Below are positions 3,038 through 24,615 of a stretch of DNA of 64,000 nt, piece after piece. Source of the DNA: an uncultured Gemmatimonadota bacterium. GTDB taxonomy: Bacteria > Gemmatimonadota > Gemmatimonadetes > Gemmatimonadales > Gemmatimonadaceae. Location of the stretch: contig CADEDA010000001.1 in NCBI GenBank assembly GCA_902825965.1, positions 124,001 through 188,000 on the forward strand, read 5' to 3'. Numbering within the stretch: the stretch's first letter is position 1; each line of letters starts with the position of its first letter. The notes below the pieces were generated by a model. It did no database searches. It was not told the origin of the DNA and was given only the letters and a program-made list of their open reading frames with translations. A program made the position numbers and the translations under genes.

Positions 3038-3131
3038 GCCGCGACCGAACGGAGGGCTGGCCCCGGGCGTAGTTCGACGGTCAATTGTGCGGCAGTCCCT
3101 GCACCGCCCCCACCCCGTCGAGCACGTGCCC

Positions 3132-7243: not shown

Positions 7244-8308
7244 TCAGGGATCCTCGATCTCCGCCAACGCCTCCACCGCCGAGCGCCGGACCTCGGCGTT
7301 CGGGTCCCGCAGGGCCTTGGTGATCGCCGGGATCGCCGCCGTCGCGCGCAGCTCGCCGAGCGCCTGGATCGCCCGGCTGCGCCACTCCGGCGACGGGTCC
7401 GACACCAGCGGCAGCAGCACCGGCACCAGGGACTCATCCTCGATGTCGATCAGTACCTCGAGCGCCGCCTCCCGCAGCCCGGCATCGGTACCCTTCGCCA
7501 GCCGGACGAGCACGTCCGGCGCCGTCTGCAGCACGTCGAGGTCGGCCAGCGCATGGATCGCCGCCAAGCGCACACGACGGTCCGTGTCGCTGGCGATGCG
7601 CCGCTCGAGATCCGGCGCCACCGAGGGATCCTCGATGTTGCCCAGCGCCCAGGCGGCATGCATGCGCACCTCCGCGGCGTCGTGCGTGAGCACACGCTTG
7701 AGCGCCGGCACCGACCCGCGCTGCTCGATCTCGCCGAGGGCGAACGCCGCCATCGCGACGACGGGCGCCTCGCGTGCCGCGAGCATGCGCTCGATGCGCT
7801 CCCGCATCGCGGGACGCTCGCGGGCCGCGGCGGCGCGGAGCGCCGCCTCCCGCACCCGCGGGGACGCGTCGTCGAACAACGTCGCGATGCTCTGATCGCT
7901 CGCCTGGCTCTCGCCGAGCATCTTCGCGGCCACCAGGCGTACGCAGGGATTGTCGCTCGCGAGCGTGGCGACGAGCAACCGGATGGCGCGTGCATCGCGG
8001 ACCGGTGCGTTGAGGGAGTCCTTCGCGAGGCGCGCGGCGGCGCGCCGGTCACTGAGTTGGCCGATCGGCATGCTGCCGTCGTTCCACCAGAAGTTGCCCA
8101 CCTGGTCGGATACGAACTCGCAGAACACCGGCTCGGCGCTGCCGAGCGTCCGCAGCAACGAGGCCACGCGTGCGGAATCGGGACCCGGACGTGAGTCCGC
8201 CTGCGCCGCGAGCGTCCCCGCCGGCAGGATCATGAGGCCGAGCAGCCATGCGCGGCGACGCAGCCGCCGGGCCGAGGCGCGGTGATCGCGCGGTGTGAGG
8301 CGGCTCAT
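7244..8308 (-). CDS. Exported HEAT-repeat protein
   Basis: A 354-residue protein with a signal peptide (positive RRLRRRAWLL, hydrophobic core, cleavage near TLAAQ). Residues from about 85 to the end are HEAT/PBS-lyase-like helical repeats of about 30 residues (for example D..VR..A..ALGEI). A short region with FWWNDGSMP near residue 75 is not part of the repeats. No enzyme motif is present, so a protein-binding scaffold is likely. It overlaps by 4 bp the end of the M56/HEAT gene, and the two C-terminal HEAT regions are similar in style, suggesting that the products interact or respond to the same stimulus. Confidence 0.85.
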   Translation of the reverse strand: MSRLTPRDHRASARRLRRRAWLLGLMILPAGTLAAQADSRPGPDSARVASLLRTLGSAEPVFCEFVSDQVGNFWWNDGSMPIGQLSDRRAAARLAKDSLNAPVRDARAIRLLVATLASDNPCVRLVAAKMLGESQASDQSIATLFDDASPRVREAALRAAAARERPAMRERIERMLAAREAPVVAMAAFALGEIEQRGSVPALKRVLTHDAAEVRMHAAWALGNIEDPSVAPDLERRIASDTDRRVRLAAIHALADLDVLQTAPDVLVRLAKGTDAGLREAALEVLIDIEDESLVPVLLPLVSDPSPEWRSRAIQALGELRATAAIPAITKALRDPNAEVRRSAVEALAEIEDP

Positions 8309-10188
8309 TTGTCGTGCTCCTCGCCGAAGTACTCCACCGCCACGCGACGCACCTCGGGATCCTTGTGCGTCATCGCCTTCTTGAGGGCGTTGTGCGCGGT
8401 CTCGGTGCGCATCTCGGTCAACGCTTCCGCTGCCATCACCCGCACGTCACTCGAGCGGTCGTCGAGCAGGCGCACCAGCATGGGCACCGTGGCGAGGACC
8501 TGTCGCTCCCCCGCGATGCTCACCGCATGCGAGCGCACGTCCGACGACCGGTCCTCCATGGCGCGCAACAACAGGTCGTCGCTGATCGCGGCCTCGAGGT
8601 CGTCGAGCGTGCTCAGCGCGGCTTGGCGCACCTCGGGATCCAGGTCCATCAGCAGCTGCGTGATGGTCGGGATCGAGGTGCGGTCGCGCAGTTCCCCGAG
8701 CAGGCGGACGGCCTGTGCACGCGACTCCGCGTCGTCCGCGGCGAGTTGCTTCCGGATGGGCGCCGCCGGGACGCGGAGGCGCTCGTAGTTGCCGAGCGCA
8801 TGCAGCGCGGCCCGACGCACCTCGCGGTCCTCGTCGTCGAGCGCCTTCACCAGGGGGTCGACCGCCATCTGGTGCTGCATCCGTCCCAGTGCGTCCGCGG
8901 CGGCACGCCGTACCTCGGCGTCCTCGTCCGAGAGCCGGGCGATCACGGCGCGCACGATGGTGGTGTCCGTGGGCCGGCGGCCCTCCTCGCCGCGCATGGC
9001 CGGCACGTCGGACTCCGATTGCCCGGCGTCGGGTGCCGCCACGAGCCCCGACGCCGATTCGGTCGCCGGTGCGGACGAGGCGCGGGCCCGCACGCCCGGC
9101 GCGAACGCGGCGGTGAGCATGAGCACGCTAGCCGCGGCACCCACCGCGACCGCACGCGTCACACCGGATCCCGCGCCGCTACCCGCAGCGCCATCGAGCA
9201 GGCGCGTCACGCGCACGGTGAGCTGCGAGCGCTCCTCGGCGAATCCAGCGACCGGCACGCCGAGCGGCGACGCCTGGATCCACTCCGCGACCTTCACCAG
9301 TGCCTTGGCGAGCGGGACACCGCCTGTGTGCCGCACGGCCCACTCGTCGGCGAGGTACTCCGCCGACTCCTGCATGCCGGCGCGGGCGAAACGGTTGAGT
9401 GGCTGGAAGAAGAAGATGCGCTCGATGATGCACGCGAACGCGAGCCACTGCGGGTCGCGACGCTCGATGTGTGCGAGTTCGTGCGCAAGCATCGCCCGCT
9501 GCTGCGCGGCGTCGAGGTCGACGAGGGCGACCTCGGGGAGGCAGATCTCGCCCGCGAGTGCGACCGGCGACGAGATGGACGGCGACGCGGTGAGCCGCAC
9601 CGGCACGCGCGCCTGCGACTCGAGGCGCAGCGTCGCGAGCAGCGTGGGCAGCGGCCCGGCCGCGACCGCGCGGCGGTCCCCGAGACGGCCCACGAGGATC
9701 AGCCGTCGACCGACGTACCACGCCACGAACACCACGGCGGCCAGCAACCAACCCAGTGCCAGCATCGGCACCAGCGTCGCCGACGGACGCGGCGCGCGCT
9801 CCGTCGCCGCCGACTCGGACCCGCCGCGGAGATCACCCGCCGCCTCGCCGAGCGAGACCGTGCTGGGCGTCGTCGCGGTGGGCGCAGGTGCTGATGCGAG
9901 TTCGGTCAGCGCGTGCTCGGCCGTGGGATCGCTGGGGACGGCGCTTGCGGCCGGCGACACCTCGGCACCGCCGAGCGCGAACGACCCCGCCGGTCGGCGA
10001 TCGAGCAGCGACTGTGTGCTCGCCGAGAGGATGGCCCCCACCAGGGCCGCCTTCCACATCACGTCCGAGACGGCCGGCGCCACGCGGCGCGTCCGCAGCA
10101 CGAGCAGCGTGACCCCGAGCAGCACCGTCGAGTGCAGTGCGTAGGTGAGCAGCCAGGCGAGCATCACCTGCGGGAACGTGTCGGTCAT
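8305..10188 (-). CDS. BlaR1/MecR1-like M56 membrane metallopeptidase with C-terminal HEAT repeats
   Basis: A 627-residue membrane protein. Hydrophobic segments lie near 8-32, 43-60, 138-160 and 345-365. The M56 zinc motif HELAH is at 236-240, with a downstream AEYLADEWA glutamate near 277. After the last membrane segment a linker leads to six or more HEAT repeats (about 410-620). In classical BlaR1 this position holds a penicillin-binding sensor domain; here HEAT repeats replace it. It overlaps the BlaI-like gene by 4 bp and the HEAT-protein gene by 4 bp. By analogy it should sense an envelope signal and trigger proteolytic inactivation of the adjacent repressor; this is inference. Confidence 0.9.
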   Translation of the reverse strand: MTDTFPQVMLAWLLTYALHSTVLLGVTLLVLRTRRVAPAVSDVMWKAALVGAILSASTQSLLDRRPAGSFALGGAEVSPAASAVPSDPTAEHALTELASAPAPTATTPSTVSLGEAAGDLRGGSESAATERAPRPSATLVPMLALGWLLAAVVFVAWYVGRRLILVGRLGDRRAVAAGPLPTLLATLRLESQARVPVRLTASPSISSPVALAGEICLPEVALVDLDAAQQRAMLAHELAHIERRDPQWLAFACIIERIFFFQPLNRFARAGMQESAEYLADEWAVRHTGGVPLAKALVKVAEWIQASPLGVPVAGFAEERSQLTVRVTRLLDGAAGSGAGSGVTRAVAVGAAASVLMLTAAFAPGVRARASSAPATESASGLVAAPDAGQSESDVPAMRGEEGRRPTDTTIVRAVIARLSDEDAEVRRAAADALGRMQHQMAVDPLVKALDDEDREVRRAALHALGNYERLRVPAAPIRKQLAADDAESRAQAVRLLGELRDRTSIPTITQLLMDLDPEVRQAALSTLDDLEAAISDDLLLRAMEDRSSDVRSHAVSIAGERQVLATVPMLVRLLDDRSSDVRVMAAEALTEMRTETAHNALKKAMTHKDPEVRRVAVEYFGEEHDK

Positions 10189-10604
10189 GACTCCTCCGAA
10201 GAACGCGTTTCCGCCTGCGCGATCATCGTGCGCAACCGGGCGAGATCGCCGGGTGCGATCTCCTGTGAGGTGAGCAGGTGGTTGACGAGCGCGGTCACGT
10301 CGCCTTCGAAGAGCCGCTCGGTGAGCTCACTCACCATCGAGCGGCGCACCTCGGCCTCGCTGACCAGCGCGCGATACAGGTACTGGCGCTGGGCCGCACG
10401 CCGCGCGACGATGCCGCGCTTCTCGAGGCGCGACACGATGGTCGCGACCGTCGTCTGTGCGAGCCCGCGTTCGGCGTGCAGCGCCTCCCAGAGCTCGGCG
10501 ACGGTCGCTTCGCCGTGCGCCCACAGGAGGCGGAGGATGGTGATCTGCAGCTCGGTGAGCTCGATCTGGTCGGACGTGTCGGGCACGTTCGGATGGGCGG
10601 TCAC
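10185..10604 (-). CDS. BlaI/MecI/CopY-family transcriptional repressor
   Basis: A 139-residue repressor. The winged helix lies at about 15-80 (LTELQITILRLLWAHGEATV, then TTVATIVSRLEKRG and the QYLYRA wing). The C-terminal ~55 helical residues should dimerise. The GTG start at 10604 has GGAG upstream. Two BlaI-type operator palindromes overlap the predicted promoter, indicating autoregulation of the three-gene operon. The next gene is a BlaR1-like peptidase, the usual antirepressor partner. No beta-lactamase gene is present, so the target is not simply resistance. Confidence 0.93.
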   Translation of the reverse strand: MTAHPNVPDTSDQIELTELQITILRLLWAHGEATVAELWEALHAERGLAQTTVATIVSRLEKRGIVARRAAQRQYLYRALVSEAEVRRSMVSELTERLFEGDVTALVNHLLTSQEIAPGDLARLRTMIAQAETRSSEES

Positions 10605-11941: not shown

Positions 11942-14818
11942 ATGTTCCCCATTCTCCGTCTGTTCCTCTTCCGTGCGTCGGCGCGTGTGCGCACGGCGGC
12001 GTCCGGGTGCGTGCTGCTCCTGCTCGGCGCCCCCGCGCTCGCGGCGCAGGCCTCCGCCCCGGCCTCCGCCCCGGCCTCCGGCCAGGCCACCGGCCAGGCC
12101 CCGGCGCCTGCCGGGGCGCGCGGTTTCGTCGCCGGGCAGGTCCTCGACAAGGAGAGCGGACGCCCGCTCGATGCGACGAATGTGATCGCGGTCGGCACCG
12201 CGTTCCGCACGGCGACCGATCTCGACGGGCGGTATCGCCTGGCGCTGCCGGTGGGTGTCTACAGCATCCGCGCCTTCCGCCTGGGCAGCGCGCCGACCCA
12301 GGTCGACAGCGTGCGTGTCACCGCCGGGACGACCAGCACGGCGAACTTCGCGCTCGGCAGCATCGCGCTGCAGCTGCAGTCCGTGGCCGTCACGGCCGGC
12401 CCGGTGCGCGCCACGTCCGAGGACGCGCTCCTCGCGATGCAGAAGGCGGCGCCCCGGGTCTCCGACGGCATCAGCGCCGAGGCGATCCGCCGCGCGCCCG
12501 GCGCCGACGCGAGTGATGCGATCGTGCGCGTGACAGGCGTGTCCGTGGTGGACAACAAGTTCGCGGTGGTGCGCGGCCTCGCCGAACGGTACAGCAACAC
12601 GCTGCTGAACGGCGTGGAACTGCCGAGCCCGGAACCGCTCAAGAAGATCGTCCCGCTCGACCTGTTCCCATCGTCGTTGCTCGAATCGATCGTCGTCAGC
12701 AAGACGGCGACTCCCGACCGACCGGGCGACTTCGCGGGCGGGTCGGTGGAGGTGACCACGAAGGAGTTCCCCGAGGAACGCGTCGCGGAGGGCAGCCTCT
12801 CCGTCGGGTACGGCTCGCAAGCGACCTTCCGGTCGCTGGCACAGCTGCCGCAGCGCGGCATCGACTGGCTCGGTTTCGATGCGGCGCAGCGGCGGCAGAT
12901 GCCGAGCAGCGCGGGCGTCGACTTCGGGTCGGGCACGGCGGCGAGCGAGCGGTTCGCGGAGCGCCTCCGCAACGTCTGGACGCCGGCGCCGACGCAGGTG
13001 CTGCCGGACGTCGGCGCCACCATGAACCTCGGGGGACGCTTCGGCGGCGCCGAGGCGCCGTTCGGGTATGCCCTGTCGGGCACGTACAGCCGGCAGGTCG
13101 ATGCGACACCGAACCGGCTGGCCCAGATCGTGTTCGACGCCGAGAACGGCATCCCGGACCAGGGCTACACGTCGAGCGAAGCGACGACCACCGTGGACGT
13201 GGGCCTGATCGCGAACCTCGCCGCGCGCATCGGCACCACGCACAAGGTCGGGCTGAAGAACCTGTTCACCCGCAATGCGGACGAGCGCCTGTCGCGCACG
13301 ACGGGCTTCGAGACCTACAACGGCAACGCCGAGCGCCTGATCCACCAGGCGCGGTTCATCACGCGGCAGCTGTACCAGACACAGCTCACCGGCGACCACC
13401 TCATCCGGCCCTTGCTCGACTCGCGCATCGAGTGGCGGTTGACCCGCGCGGCATCGTCGCGCGATGAACCGGAGAACCGCTCGCTGATCTACTTCAAGAC
13501 GCCCACCGAGTCGGCGTTCCGGCTCTCGCCCTCGAACCCCAGCCCGTTCTGGTTCCGCTTCCTCGACGACGACGTGTCGTCCGCGCAGCTGGACTGGGCG
13601 CTCCCCATCCCGCGGCTCTTCGCGGACGGCGCGCAGGTGAAGTTCGGCGGGATGTATCGCGAGAGGAACCGCGCGTTCGATGCGAGCTTCTTCCGCGCCT
13701 GGGCGAGTCCGGATCCGAGCCTGCTGCCGATCCTCCGCCTGGCACCGGAGCAGGTCTTCTCCGGCGAGATCCTCGGCCGCGCGCTCGAGATGCGCCGCGA
13801 AGGCGAGGGCACGCTGCCGTACGAGTCCGACGATGACACGCGCGCCTACTACGGCATGGTCGACCTGCCGCTGACGGGCTGGCTCCGCTTCGTCGGCGGG
13901 CTGCGACATGAGGACTGGAAGCTGAACCTCTACCAGGGCACGCGGACCGCGCCGATCGGCGCGGTCACGCAGAAGCGCACCGCGGACGACCTGGTCTCCG
14001 GCAACCTCACGATCTCGCTGAGCGACCGGCAGAACCTCAGGCTCGCCTACTACAACACCGTCGCGCGGCCCGATCCGCGCGAGGTCTCGGCCGACTACTA
14101 CGTCGCGATCACCGGCGATTGCGGCAACCGCGGCAATCCGGCGCTCCGGTCCAGCCGGATCCAGAACGGCGACGTCCGCTGGGAGCGGTATCCCCGCGCG
14201 GGCGAGCTGTTCTCGGTGAGCGGGTTCTACAAGCGGTTCACCGATCCCATCGGCGAGTTGTTGAGCTTCCCCGGCTCCTCGCAGTGCACGACCGAGTACT
14301 TCAACCTCGAGTCGGCGACCATCCTCGGCGCCGAACTCGAACTGCGGCGCGCGCTGGACTTCCTGCCCGGTCCGCTCGCCCGCCTCGCCTTCGGACTGAA
14401 TCTCACGGTGGTGGACTCCCGGGCCGTCCAGCGGGTCGACTCCGCGCTGACGCGCGAGTTCGCGCTCCAGGGCCAGTCCGACTACCTCGCCAACCTCAAC
14501 CTGCTGTACGCCGACGAGCACGGCTTCGATGCGAGTGTGCTGCTCAACTACTTCAGCGACCGCATCGTGCGCTACGGCATCGCGGACATCTCCGACGGCC
14601 GCATCGAGGCGGTGCCCAACGTCATGGAGCAATCGCGCATCAGCGTGGACGCCAAGCTGCGCAAGAAGGTCGGGGCGAGCACGCTCTCGCTCTCGGCGCG
14701 CAACCTCACGGACAATGAGACCATCTACTATCAGGAGAGCGAGGCCGGCCGCACCCGCACCGGGTACCTCCGGCCCGGTGTCTCGATCTCGCTGGGGATC
14801 GGCTATGCGTTCCGTTGA
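11942..14818 (+). CDS. TonB-dependent outer-membrane receptor with N-terminal carboxypeptidase-regulatory-like domain
   Basis: A 958-residue outer-membrane receptor. The signal peptide ends near PALAAQ (35). An Ala/Ser/Pro repeat linker (36-58) leads to a CarboxypepD_reg-like beta domain (about 62-140). The plug (about 160-290) includes APRVSDGISAEAIRRAPG and VVRGLAERYSNTLLNGVELP. The remaining ~650 residues are the beta-barrel, ending LGIGYAFR. It should import or bind a large substrate using TonB energy; specificity cannot be read. ATG 11942 is preferred over in-frame TTGs at 11933 and 11936, with GGGGAG upstream. The next lipoprotein gene starts inside its 3' end. Confidence 0.92.
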   Translation: MFPILRLFLFRASARVRTAASGCVLLLLGAPALAAQASAPASAPASGQATGQAPAPAGARGFVAGQVLDKESGRPLDATNVIAVGTAFRTATDLDGRYRLALPVGVYSIRAFRLGSAPTQVDSVRVTAGTTSTANFALGSIALQLQSVAVTAGPVRATSEDALLAMQKAAPRVSDGISAEAIRRAPGADASDAIVRVTGVSVVDNKFAVVRGLAERYSNTLLNGVELPSPEPLKKIVPLDLFPSSLLESIVVSKTATPDRPGDFAGGSVEVTTKEFPEERVAEGSLSVGYGSQATFRSLAQLPQRGIDWLGFDAAQRRQMPSSAGVDFGSGTAASERFAERLRNVWTPAPTQVLPDVGATMNLGGRFGGAEAPFGYALSGTYSRQVDATPNRLAQIVFDAENGIPDQGYTSSEATTTVDVGLIANLAARIGTTHKVGLKNLFTRNADERLSRTTGFETYNGNAERLIHQARFITRQLYQTQLTGDHLIRPLLDSRIEWRLTRAASSRDEPENRSLIYFKTPTESAFRLSPSNPSPFWFRFLDDDVSSAQLDWALPIPRLFADGAQVKFGGMYRERNRAFDASFFRAWASPDPSLLPILRLAPEQVFSGEILGRALEMRREGEGTLPYESDDDTRAYYGMVDLPLTGWLRFVGGLRHEDWKLNLYQGTRTAPIGAVTQKRTADDLVSGNLTISLSDRQNLRLAYYNTVARPDPREVSADYYVAITGDCGNRGNPALRSSRIQNGDVRWERYPRAGELFSVSGFYKRFTDPIGELLSFPGSSQCTTEYFNLESATILGAELELRRALDFLPGPLARLAFGLNLTVVDSRAVQRVDSALTREFALQGQSDYLANLNLLYADEHGFDASVLLNYFSDRIVRYGIADISDGRIEAVPNVMEQSRISVDAKLRKKVGASTLSLSARNLTDNETIYYQESEAGRTRTGYLRPGVSISLGIGYAFR
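12050..12097 (+). repeat. In-frame 12-bp minisatellite in the TonB receptor gene
   Basis: Four tandem 12-bp units of the form GCCTCCGCCCCG / GCCTCCGGCCAG encode repeating A-S-A-P and A-x-G-Q tetrapeptides directly after the signal peptide. Each unit keeps the frame, so copy-number change would lengthen or shorten a linker without breaking the gene. Confidence 0.75.
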
Positions 14819-17210
14819 GCGGCGACTGCGTGCCGTGCTGGCCGTGCTCCTCGTCGGCGGCCTTGCCGGTTGCGCGGACGGATTCGCCCCGCTCTCCGTC
14901 GCTTCCGCCCCAGAGTCCGTCACCGCCACGGCGGTGCGCGTCGATGCGGTGCGCCTGACCTGGGATCCCGTGCGCGACGCCGATGTCGTGGCCTACGTGA
15001 TCGAGCGCCGCCGGGACCTGACAGGACGGTTCGCGGAAGTCGCGCAGGTACCGCAGTCGAATCTCGGCACCGAGTTCTGGATCGACACGGACGTCGAGCC
15101 CGAGACGTTCTACGGCTACCGTGTGCGGTCGGTCACCGGAGTGGGCGACCGCTCCGGACCGTCGACAGTCGGCGGGGCACTCACGCCGCCGCGGCCCGGG
15201 ATCGAACTGACGACCAGTTCGGTCGTCACGTCCACCGACGCACTCGATCCCGACGGCTACGAGGTGCTGATCGAGGGTCCGGATACGGTGCGTGCGAGCG
15301 TCGGGGTGTCCACCACGCGGCGTTTCTCGCCGCTGCGCCCGGGCGCCTACACGGTGACGCTCAGCGGGATCATCGCGCGCTGCGCCGTGAGCGGCTCGGT
15401 GTCGCAGCAGGTGGTGGTCACGGACACCTCGGCCAACACCATCGCGCCGATCGGCTTCCAGGTCAGCTGTCGCGACCCGCGCCGCGGCGACATCTCGGTC
15501 TCGCTCGCGGTGACCGGCGCTGAACGCGACCCGGACTACACCATCGACGTGCTCGGTGAGGCGTCGGATGCGACGCTGCCGGCGGCCGAGCGCGTCTACT
15601 CCGCCTCGCGGTCCGTGCCGCTGGCGAACCCCCAGACGGTCTTCACCAACCTCCGTCCGGGCACCTACGACGTGGCGATCAGCGGCATCGCGCCCAACTG
15701 CACGTTGCAGGGCAGCGCCACGCGCACCGTGACTGTCACCGCGTTGGGTGTCGCGAGCGTCAACTTCGCCCTCAGCTGCCTCGGGTCGGGCCCGCCGCCG
15801 AGCACGGCGCCGTTCGTCTGGCGCAACACCTGGGCCCCGCAGACCGCGGCCAACGGCGCGAGTGTGACGCTGCAGCTGAGTCTCGACCTCACGGCGCGCA
15901 GTGCGCAGCGCGTGCAGGGCGTCCAGGCGAGCGTGTTCTACGATCCGGCCGTGCTGCGGTTCGAGGAGGAGGTCGCGCAACAGCTGCCGATCCTGACCGT
16001 GAACGGCAACGTGCCGGGCCAGATCTCCTTCATCGCGTCTGCGACCACGCTGCGCAGCGGCCTCGTGCGGCTCGCGGACTTCCGCTTCACCGTCCTCGGG
16101 ACGTCCGGCGCGACGGTGGTGACGACGACGCAGAACGTGAAGGCGGGAGCACCGGCGGCGTTCCAGGATTCGATCCAGGTGCAGGAGGATACCTTCACGG
16201 TCGTCGCGGGCGGTGGCGGTTCGGGGGCGAACGCGGCCCCGGTCGCGGAGGCCAACGGTCCGTATGCGGGCACGGCCGGGACGCCGGTCAGCCTGTCGGC
16301 GGCGGGCTCGTCGGACAGCGACGGCAGCATCGCGAGTTACGCGTGGAGCTTCGGGGACGGCACCACCGGCAGCGGCGCGACCGTGAGCAAGACGTACAGT
16401 GCCGCCGGCACCTACACCGCGACACTCACCGTGACCGACGACGACGGGGCCACGGCTTCCGATCAGGCGACCGTGACGATCGGCTCGTCGGGGTCGAGCA
16501 ACACGCCGCCGATCGCCAACGCAAACGGACCGTACGCCGGCACCGCCGGCGTCGCCCTGACGCTCTCGGCGGCGGGATCGTCGGATCCCAACGGGACGAT
16601 CGTCTCGTACGCCTGGTCGCTCGGCAACGGCCAGAACGCGACCGGGCCGACGCCGACCGTCACGTACGCGGCACCGGGCAACTACATCGCCTCGTTGACC
16701 GTGACGGATAACCAAGGCGCGACCGCGACGTCGCAGGCGAGTGTGACCATCGCCGCCCCGCCCGCGGCGCTGCCGCTGACCTGGCGCTCGACCTTCGGTC
16801 CGCTCGACGTCGGCAACAACCTCGTCGCCATCACCATCAGCTACGACCTGCGCACCAACCTCACGGAGACGCCGAGTGTCGAGGCGCTGCAGACGTTCAC
16901 GCTCGATTCGCTCCAGTGGGATCCGACCGTGCTGCAGTTCCACTCCGTGAGTCTGGGACCCAACATCGTCGGCAACTCCAATCAGGCGGGCGTGGGCGCG
17001 GGGCGCCTGGGCCTGTCGGGCACGATCAGCGGCGCGCAGCAACAGGGGCTGATCACGATCGCGACCATCCGGTTCCGGCCGGTGGGGGCCTCGGGGCGGT
17101 CGACCACCACCCGGACGTCGCTGGGTCCGCTCATCGGCCCGTCGAGCACGAACTTCTTCGTCTACAACTCGCGCACGGCCATCGTCGAGGGGCAGTTCAG
17201 CGTGCCCTGA
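14805..17210 (+). CDS. Multi-domain lipoprotein: FN3, two Cys-paired beta modules, cohesin-like, two PKD, cohesin-like
   Basis: An 801-residue lipoprotein with a textbook lipobox (LAGC). An FN3 domain lies at about 35-130. Two beta modules (about 140-235 and 240-335) each contain a PG-x-Y-x-V-x-[LI]-SGI motif and two cysteines. A cohesin-like module (about 345-475, FVWRNTW...VFYDPAVLRFEEEV) follows. Two PKD domains (about 485-655) share the NGPYAGTAG start. A second cohesin-like module ends the protein (WRSTFGPLD...LQWDPTVLQF). It starts 14 bp inside the TonB receptor gene, so the two are co-translated. The product is probably a surface or periplasmic scaffold. Confidence 0.85.
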   Translation: MRSVERRLRAVLAVLLVGGLAGCADGFAPLSVASAPESVTATAVRVDAVRLTWDPVRDADVVAYVIERRRDLTGRFAEVAQVPQSNLGTEFWIDTDVEPETFYGYRVRSVTGVGDRSGPSTVGGALTPPRPGIELTTSSVVTSTDALDPDGYEVLIEGPDTVRASVGVSTTRRFSPLRPGAYTVTLSGIIARCAVSGSVSQQVVVTDTSANTIAPIGFQVSCRDPRRGDISVSLAVTGAERDPDYTIDVLGEASDATLPAAERVYSASRSVPLANPQTVFTNLRPGTYDVAISGIAPNCTLQGSATRTVTVTALGVASVNFALSCLGSGPPPSTAPFVWRNTWAPQTAANGASVTLQLSLDLTARSAQRVQGVQASVFYDPAVLRFEEEVAQQLPILTVNGNVPGQISFIASATTLRSGLVRLADFRFTVLGTSGATVVTTTQNVKAGAPAAFQDSIQVQEDTFTVVAGGGGSGANAAPVAEANGPYAGTAGTPVSLSAAGSSDSDGSIASYAWSFGDGTTGSGATVSKTYSAAGTYTATLTVTDDDGATASDQATVTIGSSGSSNTPPIANANGPYAGTAGVALTLSAAGSSDPNGTIVSYAWSLGNGQNATGPTPTVTYAAPGNYIASLTVTDNQGATATSQASVTIAAPPAALPLTWRSTFGPLDVGNNLVAITISYDLRTNLTETPSVEALQTFTLDSLQWDPTVLQFHSVSLGPNIVGNSNQAGVGAGRLGLSGTISGAQQQGLITIATIRFRPVGASGRSTTTRTSLGPLIGPSSTNFFVYNSRTAIVEGQFSVP

Positions 17211-17430
17211 CGATGGCACGAGCGGGGCGTACCGGCTGCAGTCCGGACGCTGCCCGGACGCTCCGTGACACTCCCTGAGCCGCGTGACGGGACGCGGACC
17301 ACGCTGATACACGCGGGACCGTTGGGACGTGACTGGCGGCGGTGAAGTTCTGCCCCGACTCCACGCGGAGTCACGCGCTCCCCGTCAGAGTGCGGCCACC
17401 ACCGCTTCGCCATCACCCTTCGGAGGTTCC

Positions 17431-19203
17431 ATGGCAGTCCTCGCATCGCGTCATCCGTTGACGCGTCGCTTCACCACCGCCGTCGCGACGCTTGCGGCGC
17501 TCGTCACCGCCGCGTGCGCCGGCGAGAAGTCGCCGGTCACCCCGGAACTGCCGGGCACCGGCCCGGTGTCGACGTTCCGCCCGAACGCGTTCATCGCCGA
17601 CGTGAACCTGCGCACGGGGCAGGTCCGCATCACCGCGCCGAACGCCAGCACCGCCGAACGTCCTTCGCTGTCGCTCGGCGGCATCGAGCGCCCGGCCCTC
17701 TCGCTGCTCGGCGGCGAAGCCGTCCGCCTCATCCCGTCGAACTACCAGGCCTCGGCCGTCGGCGCCTTCACGCCCGGCCGCATCCGCGTCACCTTCGACG
17801 TCGTCATCGAGAACAAGCTCCCGGGCATCCGCTTCATCACGCCGACCTGGCCGGTGTCGCCGGCCGCGGGCGTGATCCTGTTCCCGCTCGAGCAGACGGT
17901 GACCACGACGCCCGGCGGCGTCACCGGCGGCGACGGCAACGACATCATCGTCGAGCAGCCGAGCTATGGTTCGATCGTGCCGAGCATCGACTGGAACGGC
18001 ACCGGCGCCGCGGGCTCCGGCGCGCCGTACAGCTTCTTCAATGACGCGGATTGCGGGCTCGCGACATCGAATGACTGCTTCCGCTGGGAAGCCTACGACC
18101 TCGAAGTCCTCCCGGCGCCGGCGACGTCGTCGGTCCGCACGATCGGCTTCGACATCGACCCCACGGTCGGGCAGTTCCGCGCCCGCATGGTGGTGGCCGC
18201 CGACCTCGCGCCGGCCGGCGCGGTGTTGCCGGGCACGATCGCCGGCACGGTGACTTCGCCGGCGCGCGGGGCGCTCTCGGGCGTGACCGTGAACGTGAGC
18301 GGTGGCGCGACGGGCACGACCAGCGCGACCGGTGCGTACTCGATCACCACCGTGGCGCCGGGCACGCGCACCGTCACACTCTCCACGCTGCCGGCCGGTT
18401 GCACCGCGCCCGCCGCGCAGACGATCGGCGTCGCCTCGGGCAGCACCAACACCGTCAACTTCACCGTCGATTGCACCGGACTCCCCGGCTCGATCGCGGG
18501 TGTCGTGACGCGTTCCAATGACGGCTCGCCGCTCGCCGGCGTGACCGTGGCCGCCTCGGGCGGCGGGTCCGATGTGACCGATGCCGCCGGTGCGTACAGC
18601 ATCGCCGGGGTCGCCGCTGGTGCGGGCACGCTCACGGTGACCGGTGCGCCGGCCGAGTGCACGCCGGCGCCGGAAGCCTACACGCTGGCGAGCGCCGGCA
18701 GCATCACGGAGGACATCACCGTGACCTGCACGGCCCCGCCGACGCCCGGCTATCAGTACAACACCACGTGGGTGGACCTCGGTGGCGGCCAGATCGCGGT
18801 CGACCTCCGCATCGACATGCGCACGTTCAACCGCGCCGACATCGTCGACGTGACCACGAGCGGCGTGACGGGTGACCCGCTCACCGGCGCGCAGCTCTCG
18901 TTCACCTATGACGCCAGCAAGCTGACCTTCGTCGAAGGCATCGGCACCTCGGCGCCCAACATCACCGCGGCCCCGACGGTCAACGGCGCGGTGCCCGGCA
19001 CGGTCAGCGTCCTCAACGGCGCGACCACGCTCCGGACGGGCAACGTCGGCATCGTGCGCGTCGTGTTCGCCCGCGTCGCGGGGGCCACGGGCCTCGTCGG
19101 CACCACGACGACGCTCACGGCCGTCTCGAGCCGCACCGGCACGACCACGCTCAGCATCCTCGCGAACGTGATCAACACCGAAGGGACCTTCGTCCTCCCG
19201 TAA
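17431..19203 (+). CDS. Lipoprotein with two carboxypeptidase-regulatory-like domains and C-terminal cohesin-like module
   Basis: A 590-residue exported protein with a probable lipobox (VTAAC). Residues ~30-260 form an unassigned beta-rich region with a Cys pair (ADCGLATSNDC). Two CarboxypepD_reg-like domains follow (GTIAGTVTSPARGALSGVTV and GSIAGVVTRSNDGSPLAGVT), each ending with a Cys-containing PAGC/PAEC motif and a later V-x-C. The C-terminal ~150 residues (YQYNTTWVDLGGGQIAVDLR...LSFTYDASKLTFVEG) resemble the cohesin-like modules of the preceding gene. ATG 17431 has GGAGG seven bases upstream. The 220-bp gap before it has no clear feature. Confidence 0.82.
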   Translation: MAVLASRHPLTRRFTTAVATLAALVTAACAGEKSPVTPELPGTGPVSTFRPNAFIADVNLRTGQVRITAPNASTAERPSLSLGGIERPALSLLGGEAVRLIPSNYQASAVGAFTPGRIRVTFDVVIENKLPGIRFITPTWPVSPAAGVILFPLEQTVTTTPGGVTGGDGNDIIVEQPSYGSIVPSIDWNGTGAAGSGAPYSFFNDADCGLATSNDCFRWEAYDLEVLPAPATSSVRTIGFDIDPTVGQFRARMVVAADLAPAGAVLPGTIAGTVTSPARGALSGVTVNVSGGATGTTSATGAYSITTVAPGTRTVTLSTLPAGCTAPAAQTIGVASGSTNTVNFTVDCTGLPGSIAGVVTRSNDGSPLAGVTVAASGGGSDVTDAAGAYSIAGVAAGAGTLTVTGAPAECTPAPEAYTLASAGSITEDITVTCTAPPTPGYQYNTTWVDLGGGQIAVDLRIDMRTFNRADIVDVTTSGVTGDPLTGAQLSFTYDASKLTFVEGIGTSAPNITAAPTVNGAVPGTVSVLNGATTLRTGNVGIVRVVFARVAGATGLVGTTTTLTAVSSRTGTTTLSILANVINTEGTFVLP

Positions 19204-19299
19204 TCCGCTTCCCTCGGCATCGCAGGGCGGGTCGGCGTCATCCCGGCGCCGGCCCCACCTGCCCGAGGACCCAATCCTTCTCTCGGAGTCTCGATCCCC

Positions 19300-21528
19300 A
19301 TGCAGTTCTCCCGCACACTCTCCCGGCTCCCGCTGCTCGGTCTCGCCGCGGCGCTCGGTCTCACGGCCTGCGCCGATGAGCCCATGAGCGCCTTCGGTCG
19401 CCCGGGCACCGCGCTGCCGATCGGCGTGGAACTCTCGTCGGCGTCCGCACGCGCGGGCAGCCGCGTCGCCGTGGCCGTCACGCTCGGCGAGGTCGCCGGC
19501 GCCACCGGTGGCATCCAGGGCGACCTCGAGTTCGATGCGTCGCGCCTCAAGTACATCGGGCAGTCGCCGGTCGGCGATGCCATCACCATCGTGAACGACG
19601 ACGCCGCTGCGCGCGGCGAGCTGGTCTTCACGTCCTTCAACCCGCGCGGCATCGACGGCCGCGTGGCGGTGTTCGTGTTCGAGGCGATGGCCCCGGACTA
19701 CGCGGCCTCGCTGCGCTACGACCACAAGCTCGCGGTGGCCGGCAACGGCGAACTCCGCAAGCTCCCGGTGCAGGTGCGCCAGGGTGTCACCGCCGACGGC
19801 TCGCTGATCGTGCCGACCGACGCACGCGATCTCTCGATCGCCGATTGGGCGGCGATGGTGGGCGCCGAGGGCACGGGCGCGCCGATCGCCCTGCGTCCGG
19901 GCGAGTATCGGCTCAACCTCGTCTACGGTGACGTCGACTTCGACGGTGCGGTGGGCCTGTTCGACTACCTCGGCGTCGCGAACGCCGCCGTAGGCAACGA
20001 CCCGATCATCGTGAACACCGACGGCCCGGCGACCGACGTCGACCTCGTCATCGCCGGCAACGTGTTCCCCGAGAACACCGCCGGCGCCTGCGGCATCGAA
20101 GCGGACGGCAGCCGCATCCTCGACCTGTTCGACTACCTCGCGATCGCCAACGAAGCCGTCGGCCTGGACGAGGCCTGCGTCGGCAACGTGATCCCGGGAC
20201 GCACTGCGCTGCCGACCACGCGCCAGAGCCTCACGGCGACCTCGACGCCCGACCTGATCGTCGGATCCGGCGAGACGCTGACGCTCACCAACGACCGCGT
20301 GTGGCAGCTCGAGGGTATCCTGCGCGTGCAGAACGGCGGTGTGCTCAACATCCAGGCGGGCACCCGCGTGGAAGGCCTCACCAACGCGGGCGAGACGCAG
20401 GCGATCTTCGTCGAACGCGGCGGGCAGATCTTCGCGACGGGCACGCTGCACCAGCCGATCGTGTTCACCTGCACCGCCGAACCGAAGTTCAAGGGCTGCT
20501 GGGGCGGCATCTTCATCGCCGGCCGTGGCACGGTCAATCGCGGTGACGCCACCCTCGGACCCTCACCGGACGGCTGCAACCAGCGCGTGGGTGAAGGCAA
20601 CGCCCCGCTGTACGGCGGCTGCAACCCGGCGGACAACAGCGGCGTGATCCGGTACGCCGTCGTCGAGTACGGCGGCCGCATCATCGGCTCCGACAACGAA
20701 CTCAACAACCTCACCCTCGCGGGCGTCGGCTCCGGCACCGTCGTCGAGTACGTGCAGACACACGGCGGCTCGGACGACGGCTTCGAGTTCTTCGGCGGCG
20801 ACCTCTCCACACGCTACCTGGTCGCCACGGGCAACGACGACGACCAGTTCGACGTCTCCTTCGGCCTCCGCGGCGACCACCAGTTCGTGATCACCCAGTC
20901 CGACGCCGGGGCGGCGAACAACGACTCCAAGGCGATCGAAGCCGACGGCAACGAGCCGGCCCCGGGGTCCAACGACCTGCCGCGCACCGCGCCGCGCCTG
21001 TGGAACTTCACCATCATCGGCAACCTCGCGGCCCGCACGCAGAACGCGGCCATCCACATCCGCCGCGCCAACGGCCTCAAGCTGTACAACTCGCTCGTGG
21101 CCGGCTACGAGATCGGTGTGGACTTCGATGATCCCCTCACCTGCAACACGTTCGGCTCCGGCATCCCGGAGATCCTGAACACCACGTTCATCGACGTGCC
21201 GAACCTCGGACAGAACGATGCCTCCGACCCGCTCTGCGGCTCGGCGACCAGCGCCACCGAAGGCGAGGAGGAGTACATCCGCTCGTTCGCGTCCAACCGT
21301 GAGCGCAGCGGCATCGCCAGCGTCCTCGTGAACGCGTTCGACACCAACCTCCCCGACTGGCGCATGCTGATCGTGGGCGGAGCCCCGGCCGAAGGCGGCA
21401 CGTTCGCCGCGACCGGTGGTGCCGTGGCGACGAACTACCGTGGCGCGGTCGCGCCGGTCAACACCGCCGGCGACATCCCGTGGTATGCGGGGTGGACCCG
21501 TCCGTTCCAGACGGCCACCGCGCCGTAA
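19300..21528 (+). CDS. Lipoprotein with cohesin-like domain, dockerin-like pair and C-terminal beta-helix region
   Basis: A 742-residue lipoprotein with lipobox LTAC. A cohesin-like domain lies at about 40-160 (IGVELSSASARAGSRVAVAV...LEFDASRLKYIG). Residues 211-231 (DVDFDGAVGLFDYLGVANAA) and about 267-288 (EADGSRILDLFDYLAIANEA) look like the two calcium-binding segments of a type I dockerin; the first keeps Asp at positions 1, 3, 5 and 12, the second is degenerate. Residues ~310-742 form a repetitive region with VLNIQAGTRVEG, FTCTAEPKFKGCWGGIFI and HIRRANGLKLYNSLVAGYEIG, like right-handed beta-helix lipoproteins. Its stop overlaps the next gene's ATG (TAATG). Confidence 0.85.
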   Translation: MQFSRTLSRLPLLGLAAALGLTACADEPMSAFGRPGTALPIGVELSSASARAGSRVAVAVTLGEVAGATGGIQGDLEFDASRLKYIGQSPVGDAITIVNDDAAARGELVFTSFNPRGIDGRVAVFVFEAMAPDYAASLRYDHKLAVAGNGELRKLPVQVRQGVTADGSLIVPTDARDLSIADWAAMVGAEGTGAPIALRPGEYRLNLVYGDVDFDGAVGLFDYLGVANAAVGNDPIIVNTDGPATDVDLVIAGNVFPENTAGACGIEADGSRILDLFDYLAIANEAVGLDEACVGNVIPGRTALPTTRQSLTATSTPDLIVGSGETLTLTNDRVWQLEGILRVQNGGVLNIQAGTRVEGLTNAGETQAIFVERGGQIFATGTLHQPIVFTCTAEPKFKGCWGGIFIAGRGTVNRGDATLGPSPDGCNQRVGEGNAPLYGGCNPADNSGVIRYAVVEYGGRIIGSDNELNNLTLAGVGSGTVVEYVQTHGGSDDGFEFFGGDLSTRYLVATGNDDDQFDVSFGLRGDHQFVITQSDAGAANNDSKAIEADGNEPAPGSNDLPRTAPRLWNFTIIGNLAARTQNAAIHIRRANGLKLYNSLVAGYEIGVDFDDPLTCNTFGSGIPEILNTTFIDVPNLGQNDASDPLCGSATSATEGEEEYIRSFASNRERSGIASVLVNAFDTNLPDWRMLIVGGAPAEGGTFAATGGAVATNYRGAVAPVNTAGDIPWYAGWTRPFQTATAP

Positions 21529-22892
21529 TGCAGCAGACCGACTCGTTGGGGCGTCGATGGCCGACGCCCCGCCGATCCCTGATCGCCGCCGCGCGGAACC
21601 GCGCGGCGGCGGTCTTGCTGTGCGCACTCCCCCTCCTCGGCGGCTGTCAGGACGCCACCGAGCCGCCCGGCCCGCCGTATCTCGCGATCGTCACCGACCT
21701 GAGCACCTGGCCCGGCGCGGTCGCGCCGGCCACCATCGCGTACCGCGTGCGGGAGCTGTCGGGTTCGCTCGCCTTCGATGAGCGCCTGCGGATCCCACCG
21801 CAGGACACGATCATCATCCCGGTCCCGCCGGCGTCGTATCTCATCGAGGCCGTCGATCTCCCCACGCACTGCATCCCCCGCAACGGCACGGACCGCGGCA
21901 TCGTGCTCGGCGAGGCGGACAACACCGGCGTCGTGCGCTACCAGATCACCTGCCGGGGGGTCCTGAGCCTCGCCGCCGTGGTCGATGGTTGGGACGTCGA
22001 CGCCAGCTACATCTACCGCGTCCGCGACCTGAACGGTGGCGAGTGGACGGGGATCCTGCCCGCGAACGACACCCTCGTACTCAACGAGATCCCGCCGGGC
22101 ACCCTCGACATCCAACTCGGTGGCGTCGCCCCCAACTGCCTCGTGAGCAGCGACGGCGGTCCCCGTCGACGCCTCGACGTCGACCCCGCCGGAGGCGCCG
22201 CGATCGAGTTCCGCATCAACTGTTCCTCCGTCGCGCGACGCCCGCGCCTGCTCGAACTCGCGAGTGGCGCGTCCTTCGGCGCCAGCATCTTCCAGTTCCG
22301 CGTCTTCGACCCGGACGCCGACCTCGACGGCTACACCTGGGACATCACCGACTGCCTCGGCAACAGCATCCTGCCCGACCGCCGCGAGCGCATCCGCCGC
22401 GGCCTGCGCGGTGGCCGCGGCGCACTGAGCGACACGCTCACGGTCGTCGGCGCCTACGAGGTCGGCCTGCCCCAGTCCGTGCTGCGCGGGGCCTGCACCG
22501 AGATCCGCGTCTTCGACCAGCAGGGCAACTCGAGCGAGATCGCCACGCATCGGATCGGCAGCGCCACCGGCTTCGCCCCTTCGGTGCGCTTCTTCAATGC
22601 GCGGCTCGACGGCACCACCGCCGTGCGCAGCATCCTCGAGGTCAGCGACCCGGAGCAGGACATCGTCGGCCACTTCGTGGCGGTCCGACTGCGTGATGGG
22701 GCGCTCAGCGGCATCCCGGATGGCACGCCCGACCTGGGCATCATGGATCCGCTCGGCTATCTCGGCACCACCGTGGTCGACATCCCGACCACCGGGCGTA
22801 TCCGCTGGGACGATGTCTACGCGGTCATCGTGTACGTGATCGATCGCACCGGCAACGTGATCCGCGTGGAGGATGCCGATGTCTTCCGGTGA
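21528..22892 (+). CDS. Lipoprotein with repeated Cys-paired beta modules
   Basis: A 454-residue protein with a long N-terminal basic stretch and lipobox LGGC near residue 40. Two related beta modules (about 50-150 and 155-240) carry PP-x-[ST]-Y/L and APNC/PTHC cysteine motifs and finish in [YF]-x-I-x-C, like those of the lipoproteins upstream. The C-terminal half (about 240-454) is a further beta-rich region without recognised motifs. Start ATG 21528 shares its A with the previous stop, implying translational coupling. I recognise no enzyme. Confidence 0.78.
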   Translation: MQQTDSLGRRWPTPRRSLIAAARNRAAAVLLCALPLLGGCQDATEPPGPPYLAIVTDLSTWPGAVAPATIAYRVRELSGSLAFDERLRIPPQDTIIIPVPPASYLIEAVDLPTHCIPRNGTDRGIVLGEADNTGVVRYQITCRGVLSLAAVVDGWDVDASYIYRVRDLNGGEWTGILPANDTLVLNEIPPGTLDIQLGGVAPNCLVSSDGGPRRRLDVDPAGGAAIEFRINCSSVARRPRLLELASGASFGASIFQFRVFDPDADLDGYTWDITDCLGNSILPDRRERIRRGLRGGRGALSDTLTVVGAYEVGLPQSVLRGACTEIRVFDQQGNSSEIATHRIGSATGFAPSVRFFNARLDGTTAVRSILEVSDPEQDIVGHFVAVRLRDGALSGIPDGTPDLGIMDPLGYLGTTVVDIPTTGRIRWDDVYAVIVYVIDRTGNVIRVEDADVFR

Positions 22893-24615
22893 GACCCGGC
22901 GACGCGGCCGTGCGATCGGCGCACTCGGGGCGTTGGCGCTCGTCGCGGCCTGCAGTTCGGACGGGCCCGTCCGCCCGCCGGCCGATGTCGAGTGTGACGG
23001 TGCGACGATCGCCGTGCGCAACCTCGATCCCGGTGACGGGGTGACCATAGACGGTGCTGCGATCGGCTGCGTCGCGCTCGCCGGCGCGGGGGCGCGGTAC
23101 TTGGTCGCGCCACAGCTCACCGGACCGAGCCTGCCCTACGGGGGCTACGGATTCCGCCTGGGCGACCCGGAGGCGATCGCCGCCGGCAGTGGCGCCCTGC
23201 GCCTCGCCGAGTCCGCCGCACTGCCCTGGCTCCGGTCGTCGGACCCCGCCGACGCCCAGCACCGGCTCGATGCCTTGTTGCGCGATCGGGAGCGGTCGCT
23301 GCCGCGTCCCAGCGGCCGCGCGCGGACGGTACGATCGCCTGTGGATGCGGGCCGCCCGGACGCACCGCAGGCGGCCGATCCGTTGCGCACGTTCAGCGTG
23401 CTCAACTCCCTCGACGCGACGCCACGGTTCAGCGCGGTGGCCGCCGCGCTCGCGTTCGAGGGCGCCACGGTGCTCCTGTACCTCGACACAGTCGCCAACG
23501 CCGCGTTCGCGCCCGCCGAACTCGCGGCCCTCGGGCAGCTGCTCGACGGGCAACTGATCCCGGCCATGCACGGCCAGTTCGGCCGCGGGTCGGACATCGA
23601 CGCGAACGGACGCGTGGTCTTCCTGCTCACACCCACCGTCAACGCGATGGTCACGGCAGCCGAGTGTGCCACGAGCGGGTTCGTGCGCGGCTTCTTCTAT
23701 GGCCACGACCTCACGAGCGACGCGCCGACGTCCAATCGCGGCGAGGTCTTCTACGCGTACGTGCCCGACCCGACCGGGCGCTGGAGCTGCGCCCACGGCA
23801 AGTCGGACGTCCTCGCGAATCTGGCCCCGACCTTCATGCACGAGCTGCAGCACATGATCTCGTTCGGGGAGCACGCGATCGCGCGCGGCGGACCTTCGGA
23901 GGAACCGTGGCTCAACGAAGGACTGAGCCATATCGCCGAGGAGCTCGGTGCGCGGGTGTTCGAGGCACGCTATCCGCCGCCCACCGGGCGGTCCGTAGCC
24001 ACGCAGATCTTCCCCGATTCCGCCAGCCCGTACATCACGCCAAACCTGCTGTACTCGTACCGCTTCCTGCTCAACAGCGGCTTCTATTCGCTCACGACCT
24101 GCGCGCCCGGCACGTTCTGCTCGCTCTCCGAGCGCGGTGGCGCCTGGCTCCTGCTCCGCTACATCGCGGATCAGCGGGGCGAATCCGTGCTGCGCCAGCT
24201 GGTCGAGACGCCACTGGCCGGCCGGGCGAACCTCGAGGCCGTGACCGGCCGCAGCACCGCCGCATGGCTCGGCGACTTCGCACTCGCCGTCTCGGCCGAC
24301 AGCATCGAAGGCCGGCCACGGAGCAGCACCTCACCGCTGCGATTTCAGTCGCGGAATCTCCGGCGGCTCTACAAGGCGCTGTTCGACGCCTACGGTCTGG
24401 CCGGCGGTGTGGGGCGGCCGTTCCCGATCGCGCCACTCGAACTTCCCGCGAGCGGGTCGTTCGTCACCGGCACCATCCGTCCCGGCACGTTTGCGACCTA
24501 TCGCGTCACTGCGGGCTCCGGTGATGCGGTACTGCGTTTGGGCCTGTTCGGCGCGGACGCGCAACCGTTCGCGGCCTCGGCAGGTGCGCAGCTGTCGATC
24601 CTCCGACTGCCCTGA
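22879..24615 (+). CDS. Lipoprotein metallopeptidase, M30 (hyicolysin)-like HExxH protein
   Basis: A 578-residue exported protein with lipobox VAAC (Cys25). A zinc-metallopeptidase core lies at about 175-470: HELQH at 321-325, then NEGLSHIAEEL with the likely third ligand Glu347, spacing and context like family M30. An N-terminal domain (25-170) and a C-terminal beta domain (about 495-578) flank it. ATG 22879 is chosen over ATG 22873 because GGAGG at 22868-22872 is correctly spaced only for 22879. It overlaps the preceding lipoprotein gene by 14 bp, making it the last gene of the TonB-receptor locus. It is probably a surface protease. Confidence 0.82.
   Translation: MSSGETRRRGRAIGALGALALVAACSSDGPVRPPADVECDGATIAVRNLDPGDGVTIDGAAIGCVALAGAGARYLVAPQLTGPSLPYGGYGFRLGDPEAIAAGSGALRLAESAALPWLRSSDPADAQHRLDALLRDRERSLPRPSGRARTVRSPVDAGRPDAPQAADPLRTFSVLNSLDATPRFSAVAAALAFEGATVLLYLDTVANAAFAPAELAALGQLLDGQLIPAMHGQFGRGSDIDANGRVVFLLTPTVNAMVTAAECATSGFVRGFFYGHDLTSDAPTSNRGEVFYAYVPDPTGRWSCAHGKSDVLANLAPTFMHELQHMISFGEHAIARGGPSEEPWLNEGLSHIAEELGARVFEARYPPPTGRSVATQIFPDSASPYITPNLLYSYRFLLNSGFYSLTTCAPGTFCSLSERGGAWLLLRYIADQRGESVLRQLVETPLAGRANLEAVTGRSTAAWLGDFALAVSADSIEGRPRSSTSPLRFQSRNLRRLYKALFDAYGLAGGVGRPFPIAPLELPASGSFVTGTIRPGTFATYRVTAGSGDAVLRLGLFGADAQPFAASAGAQLSILRLP

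Follow-up and report, generated by a model that had tools for sequence, protein, structure and literature searches.

Why should a TonB-dependent receptor be encoded beside cohesin and dockerin modules? So far, cohesin and dockerin have mainly been known for clipping enzymes into assemblies in Gram-positive cellulolytic bacteria. The question is raised by six tightly ordered genes, g1 to g6, on the plus strand at positions 11942-24615 of a 64,000-nucleotide stretch of DNA (the window; contig C1, 124001-188000) from a soil-type Gemmatimonadaceae genome of 4.07 Mb (G000). A TonB-dependent receptor (g1) is followed by five lipoproteins (g2 to g6), among which are four cohesin-like modules (two in g2, one in g3, one in g4) and a dockerin-like segment. 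The parts are of known kinds; their combination is, as far as open-licence papers show, a new one. On the basis of the domains, lipoprotein signals, gene order, co-occurrence, and ElpS-type homology observed here, we give even weight to the reading that an ElpS-type uptake pair (a TonB receptor and a beta-helix lipoprotein) has been rebuilt into a calcium-clipped surface assembly, with the six genes forming one unit and with the binding, surface exposure, and substrate that we infer below. The genes and their modules, all on the plus strand, are as follows.

11942..14818, plus strand: g1, TonB-dependent receptor with CarboxypepD_reg, Plug, and beta-barrel domains; 958 amino acids (Pfam, NCBIfam, tree)
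14805..17210, plus strand: g2, lipoprotein with an FN3 domain, two immunoglobulin-like (Ig-like) repeats, a cohesin, two PKD domains, and a cohesin, in that order; 801 amino acids (Pfam)
about 15810-16208, plus strand: first cohesin module of g2 (PF00963 match and hhalign)
about 16770-17207, plus strand: second cohesin-like module of g2, on weaker evidence (hhalign to the first g2 module)
17431..19203, plus strand: g3, lipoprotein with a conserved N-domain of about 210 residues, two CarboxypepD_reg domains, and a cohesin at the C-terminus; 590 amino acids (Pfam, AF2, Foldseek)
about 18742-19200, plus strand: predicted cohesin module of g3 (PF00963, 22.7 bits; Foldseek)
19300..21528, plus strand: g4, lipoprotein with a cohesin, a dockerin, and a right-handed beta-helix; 742 amino acids (Pfam, homologues)
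about 19405-19815, plus strand: predicted cohesin module of g4 (AF2 and Foldseek; profile versus PDB)
19915-20176, plus strand: dockerin-like segment of g4 (profile of nine homologues versus PDB)
about 20275-21525, plus strand: beta-helix part of g4, of the ElpS / F-lipoprotein kind (homologues beside TonB receptors)
21528..22892, plus strand: g5, lipoprotein of Ig/TTR-like repeats and no named family; 454 amino acids (full-length only in cluster genomes)
22873..24615, plus strand: g6, lipoprotein and M30-type metalloprotease; 580 amino acids (phmmer to lugdulysin 7bb8)

A first-pass annotation of this DNA had described six consecutive plus-strand open reading frames, several of them overlapping, and all six lie where it placed them. 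The overlaps are 14 bp (g1/g2), 1 bp (g4/g5, with g5 starting at the ATG at 21528), and 20 bp (g5/g6), and gaps of 220 bp and 96 bp separate g2 from g3 and g3 from g4. Its five lipoproteins are borne out by motif inspection, which finds a signal peptide and a lipobox in each of g2 to g6 (LAGC, TAAC, LTAC, LGGC, VAAC). Its inventory of cohesin, dockerin, PKD, FN3, and protease modules also stands, though it omitted the beta-helix of g4 and the carboxypeptidase-regulatory-like domains of g1 and g3. All four cohesin-like modules it counted are present, the second g2 module being placed solely by profile similarity, and its paired dockerin-like motif is real.

The cohesin modules were assessed by sequence families, structural models, and profile comparison. 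The Pfam Cohesin family (PF00963) matches the window's own proteins with E values of 0.0025 (g3) and 0.0043 (g4), below the curated cut-off: the window modules score 21.0-22.7 bits against a cut-off of 24.1, whereas several modules of relatives score 25.7-32.2 bits. Homologues in relatives reach E values of 6.6e-7 (g4), 1.1e-5 (g2), and 8.7e-4 (g3). The first g2 module is matched with 21.3 bits at contig positions 139843-140136 (window 15843-16136). When 16 genomes were searched in six frames with PF00963, all nine matches fell within the cluster, three of them in the host genome (g2, g3, g4).

Modeling the cohesin-dockerin part of g4 with AF2, on the basis of four sequences, gave a cohesin domain of usable quality (pLDDT mostly 63-90). 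All of the 50 best PDB matches found by Foldseek for this N-terminal domain are cohesins (best 4wi0, E 9.2e-8), and the non-cellulosomal cohesins of Archaeoglobus (2xdh) and Clostridium perfringens NagJ (2jh2) are among its matches. The g4 cohesin profile likewise finds cohesins as its top matches among PDB sequences (best E 1.3e-4). The AF2 model of g3 consists mostly of pilin-like Ig/TTR domains, yet Foldseek also matches it to cohesins (4ums, TMt 0.61; 5nrm, TMt 0.63; 2jh2, TMt 0.61-0.64). The generic Ig folds that the first-pass annotation had named as the alternative are ruled out for the g4 and g3 modules by these models and matches, and as far as predicted structures go, the cohesin identity of both is solid. 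Searches of PDB sequences with g1, full g4, and full g3 returned no direct homologues.

For the g2 modules, cohesin identity is suggested by profiles only. In profile-profile comparisons with hhalign, the first g2 module matches the other three modules with 95.5-97.5% probability, including 97.5% for the second g2 module. The g3 and g4 cohesins match each other at 77%, the second g2 module matches that of g4 at 21%, and the controls (PKD, g3 N-domain) stay below 1%. A value of 99.5% between the second g2 module and that of g3, and the matches of both to a TTR control, are partly repeat-driven because their alignments include TTR repeats from some genomes. The second g2 module has no direct match among PDB sequences and is assigned through its likeness to the first alone.

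The dockerin-like segment occupies residues 206-292 of g4 and contains paired loops: loop 1 (DVDFDGAVGLFD) at about 19930-19965 and loop 2 (EADGSRILDLFD) at 20098-20133. The calcium-ligand pattern of dockerins is largely kept in loop 1 of nine homologues, with few exceptions, three sequences having one inserted residue. Among the fetched loci, no plain beta-helix relative was found to have the pattern. When a profile of the nine homologues was compared with all PDB chains, the nine best matches were the dockerin side of dockerin-cohesin entries (E 0.0014 to 0.31), led by 4uyp (E 0.0014), and one relative matches Dockerin_1 with an E value of 0.0024. Elsewhere in the host genome, the one other dockerin match terminates a PKD/Ig protein (G000:C7; L093:2744-5971), and a full canonical dockerin occurs on a beta-propeller-like protein of genome G344 (G344:C131; L094:4852-6729). 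Such dockerin-end proteins are possible outside partners, but are too few for a claim.

It could be argued that the modules resembling cohesin and dockerin are ancient leftovers that bind nothing and act as spacers in ordinary adhesins, in which case the cluster would be an attachment system and the cargo of the receptor unrelated. This is improbable. The window modules do lie under the Pfam cut-off, the second dockerin loop has been lost in one relative, and Ig and PKD domains are abundant; however, the calcium ligands of loop 1 are retained across two families, the modules are all kept together, and the pairing with the receptor is conserved.

A pointer to what the assembly may have been built from lies in g4, whose C-terminal 60% is a beta-helix belonging to a widespread family. 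Matches to g4 were found in 74 of the 148 genomes of the family, nearly all spanning the beta-helix part alone, and Pfam Beta_helix matches relatives weakly. In 26 of 27 Gemmatimonadaceae loci opened (chosen from listed matches, mostly high-scoring, and not a random sample), a TonB receptor gene homologous to g1 precedes that of the beta-helix, which lies amid phoB, phoR, pstS, pstA, phoU, ppx, or ppk. The host genome also has such a plain pair, separate from the cluster, in its Pho operon (G000:C23; phoB-phoR-pstS-ppx-ppk), with about 31% identity to the cluster in the receptor and about 34% in the beta-helix. A small conserved lipoprotein of no family accompanies the Pho-region pair in Gemmatimonadaceae (L024-L026, L028, L029, L031, L073-L092). 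The plain pair and this lipoprotein, encoded in the phoB-phoR-pst-ppx-ppk region, are likely to be an outer-membrane phosphate-acquisition system.

Pairs of this kind extend beyond the phylum. A tblastn search found the beta-helix/TonB receptor pair on plasmids of Sphingomonas, Indioceanicola, Pseudoalteromonas, Hymenobacter, and Parabacteroides (Pseudomonadota and Bacteroidota). The Sphingomonas and Indioceanicola pairs are followed by gspN and gspD and so are linked to type II secretion, in agreement with the published neighborhood of elpS (cc0170) and cc0171 in Caulobacter (PMC2996285). ElpS, encoded beside cc0171 in Caulobacter crescentus, is a surface lipoprotein that cells make when starved of phosphate; a protease appears to be required to release it (PMC2996285). 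In Flavobacterium, the low-phosphate lipoproteins FI and FII are encoded beside TonB receptors and are related to the Caulobacter protein; in F. johnsoniae, FII (IPR011050) lies in the phoBR operon and the PUSIII locus includes an outer-membrane protease (PMC8115612). Judged by homology, g1 and the g4 beta-helix appear to be a receptor/beta-helix lipoprotein pair of the ElpS type, as compared with homologues in ElpS-like loci and with ElpS itself by description.

The cluster resembles the ElpS/CC0171 system in having a surface lipoprotein gene beside a TonB-dependent receptor, an arrangement in which the homologues of the g4 beta-helix are found, and in the role of a protease in ElpS release. 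It differs in that ElpS has no described cohesin or dockerin, adjoins a locus for type II secretion, and is induced when phosphate is lacking, whereas the cluster lacks such neighbors. Likewise, the F. johnsoniae PUSIII and PUSIV loci share the TonB receptor, the lipoprotein partner (FI/FII), and, in PUSIII, a protease, but have no reported cohesin or dockerin modules or additional cohesin lipoproteins (PMC8115612). The Pho-operon pair of Gemmatimonadaceae differs in lacking the cohesin, the dockerin, and g2, g3, g5, and g6. In the cluster, moreover, g2 and g3 separate the receptor from its beta-helix partner, and there are no Pho genes inside the fetched cluster loci.

Phylogenetic trees place the cluster receptors in one well-supported (starred) clade and the cluster g4 beta-helices in another, each separate from the Pho pairs, so that g1 and g4 of the cluster co-diverge. 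The cluster is a separate clade of the ElpS-type kind of pair, with a cohesin and a dockerin and without a Pho neighborhood. That the substrate contains phosphate is no more than a lead, because the cluster lies outside the Pho neighborhood, the host keeps a separate Pho pair, and a plain pair of the same genus sits in a Pho operon.

About ten genomes, from two families within the order Gemmatimonadales, share the gene order, which rules out a strain-specific oddity and extends the conservation that the first-pass annotation had asked for. The pairs g1-g2, g2-g3, g3-g4, and g4-g5 are adjacent in every contiguous locus examined. ES-bin-51 (L022; L069 by overlapping sequence) keeps all six genes in unchanged order, and ES-bin-29 has g1-g4 and then a contig end. 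In JARIEX (L063) and G226, g1-g5 are present and g6 lies on the opposite strand, in G226 upstream; G226 also has a second g4, as does G260, which has g2-g5. Portions of the cluster occur in G203, G396, and G172, g1-g4 in a near relative (L057), and g4-g6 in a member of the same genus (G447). When 395 genomes from across the phylum were sampled, 8 had full-length or long matches to g3.

This distribution bears on the partners of the g4 dockerin. There is a modest but appreciable chance that the g4 cohesin and dockerin bind within g4, or from one g4 to another, to form a calcium-stabilised hinge or oligomer, with g2 and g3 as independent accessories and with ElpS/CC0171-like uptake lacking a wider scaffold. 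Both modules are present in every g4 of sufficient length, there is a single dockerin for several cohesins, and three genomes of the other family have a second g4 copy, all of which would suit such a hinge. However, wherever a locus covers the stretch from g1 to g4, the cohesin-bearing g2 and g3 are encoded inside it, and the plain beta-helix relatives examined are without dockerins. As a result, all the cohesin and dockerin modules appear together.

The remaining genes frame the pair. The receptor g1 matches PF00593 (E 7e-20), PF13620 (9e-15; the N-terminal carboxypeptidase-regulatory-like domain), and PF07715 (4e-9) in Pfam, and TIGR01782 in NCBIfam (1.8e-69, under that model's cut-off). The PKD and FN3 domains expected in g2 are above the Pfam cut-off (PKD_4, 8.7e-44; fn3, 2.8e-8). 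In g3, two carboxypeptidase-regulatory-like domains follow the N-domain of about 210 residues, which belongs to no family; stand-alone or short copies of this N-domain adjoin the cluster in three relatives (L069:3326-4123 and 1814-3133; L063:17870-18658; L023:10049-10825). Neither Pfam nor NCBIfam matches g5 (queried span 21567-22892, 13 residues downstream of the ATG at 21528). Full-length or long g5 matches occur solely in cluster-bearing genomes, weaker matches elsewhere being single Ig-like repeats.

The protease anticipated in g6 is an M30 (hyicolysin/lugdulysin-like) metalloprotease by homology and predicted active-site motifs. It aligns with lugdulysin (7bb8; phmmer E 6.3e-11) in both the HExxH and the WLNExLS..E motif, with HELQH at 23839 and WLNEGLSHIAEE downstream, which supplies the glutamate. 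Peptide or protein scavenging, in which g6 cuts extracellular protein and the receptor imports the peptides, would use these intact motifs, and two relatives have an Abhydrolase_1 protein, which also matches serine-aminopeptidase S33 more weakly, next to the cluster or close by. We nevertheless regard this as unlikely, given that M30 proteins are ubiquitous in the order and that two relatives encode g6 on the opposite strand. In addition, g6 may act on the assembly itself, since a protease releases the published ElpS.

Comparison with other assemblies sets the cluster apart. Like the cellulosomes of Clostridia, it has cohesin folds and calcium-loop dockerins; it lacks their long-array scaffoldin, carbohydrate-binding modules (CBMs), and glycoside hydrolases, and is predicted to be lipid-anchored in a diderm, with a TonB receptor encoded alongside. 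A cellulosome was ruled out: g1 to g6 contain no glycoside hydrolase or CBM domain (Pfam, NCBIfam), and the genome has one other dockerin match. The cohesins of Archaeoglobus (2xdh) and NagJ (2jh2) are, like those of the cluster, cohesin folds beyond cellulosomes, and we know of no link between them and a TonB receptor. The SusCD utilisomes of Bacteroidota also combine lipoprotein partners with a TonB receptor, the partner in the cluster being instead a beta-helix; to our knowledge they have no calcium-clip modules. A SusCD system was ruled out, as g2 to g6 have no SusD match (Pfam, NCBIfam). The open-licence PMC literature yielded no paper joining cohesin or dockerin with TonB systems, or describing such a cluster in Gemmatimonadota, in line with the first-pass statement that no equivalent was known.

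If the preferred reading of a calcium-clipped assembly holds, the lipoprotein of an ElpS-type pair would have gained a cohesin and a dockerin, and cohesin-bearing lipoproteins would have joined the operon; we infer the direction of this change from pair to cluster, as the trees do not polarise it. The calcium-loaded dockerin of g4 would clip onto the cohesins of g2, g3, or both, or onto that of another g4, tethering the lipoproteins as a surface scaffold around g1. The beta-helix and the Ig, PKD, and TTR domains may bind a large or particle-bound nutrient, whose small product would be taken in by the receptor. The protease g6 would either cut protein in the substrate or trim or release the lipoproteins, as for the protease of ElpS. 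Delivery to the TonB receptor, first suggested from the sequence, is made more plausible by analogy, because the g4 beta-helix and g1 are a pair of the type of ElpS/CC0171 and of FI/FII with their TonB-dependent receptors. More tentatively, and at less than even confidence, we suggest a TonB-coupled cohesin-dockerin machine, in which a calcium-clipped scaffold on the outer face passes cargo straight to the receptor, as an outer-membrane counterpart of the cellulosome derived from an ElpS-type pair.

Several points weigh against an assembly of this kind. Loop 2 of the dockerin is looser than loop 1: it is acceptable in the g4 of the window and degenerate in L071 and others. In the AF2 model the dockerin comes out poorly, at a pLDDT of about 30, too low to back the binding step with a predicted complex. 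Because g4 bears both a cohesin and a dockerin, their contact could be intramolecular or between g4 molecules. The cluster is rare, at the 8 of 395 phylum genomes given above. No polysaccharide-active or phosphate-ester enzyme is encoded in it, and g6 is no hallmark of it, because 255 of 288 genomes in the order encode M30 proteins resembling g6. No PHO box was found at the cluster with the E. coli consensus, a search that is uninformative because the same consensus missed the real Pho operon too.

Other features of the surroundings complete the description. A search for sigma-70 promoters and terminators at the cluster gave nothing above chance. On the minus strand at window 7244-10604, translations inspected by eye show two proteins with HEAT repeats, one of them M56 BlaR1-like (8305-10188), together with a BlaI-like regulator (10185-10604). 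A secretin gene at window 44287-46254, matched by the GspD model over 44296-45426, probably encodes PilQ within a locus for type IV pili. In three relatives, an Ig-like (partly Big_2) lipoprotein of about 1030 amino acids adjoins the cluster (L063:14437-17532, L071:10818-12000, L067:228-3320); elsewhere in the host genome it has no more than partial matches. Two relatives from the second family encode an alpha/beta-hydrolase close to the cluster (L066:7327-8436, L067:5252-6229).

If the proposed assembly is correct, a cohesin-dockerin clip in an outer-membrane uptake unit would be a new use of this clip. It would also offer a concrete way to work out what the members of the widespread ElpS/F-lipoprotein family do, and might supply new cohesin-dockerin pairs for engineering. 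For the Gemmatimonadota, a poorly known phylum, it provides a link to a testable mechanism of nutrient capture.

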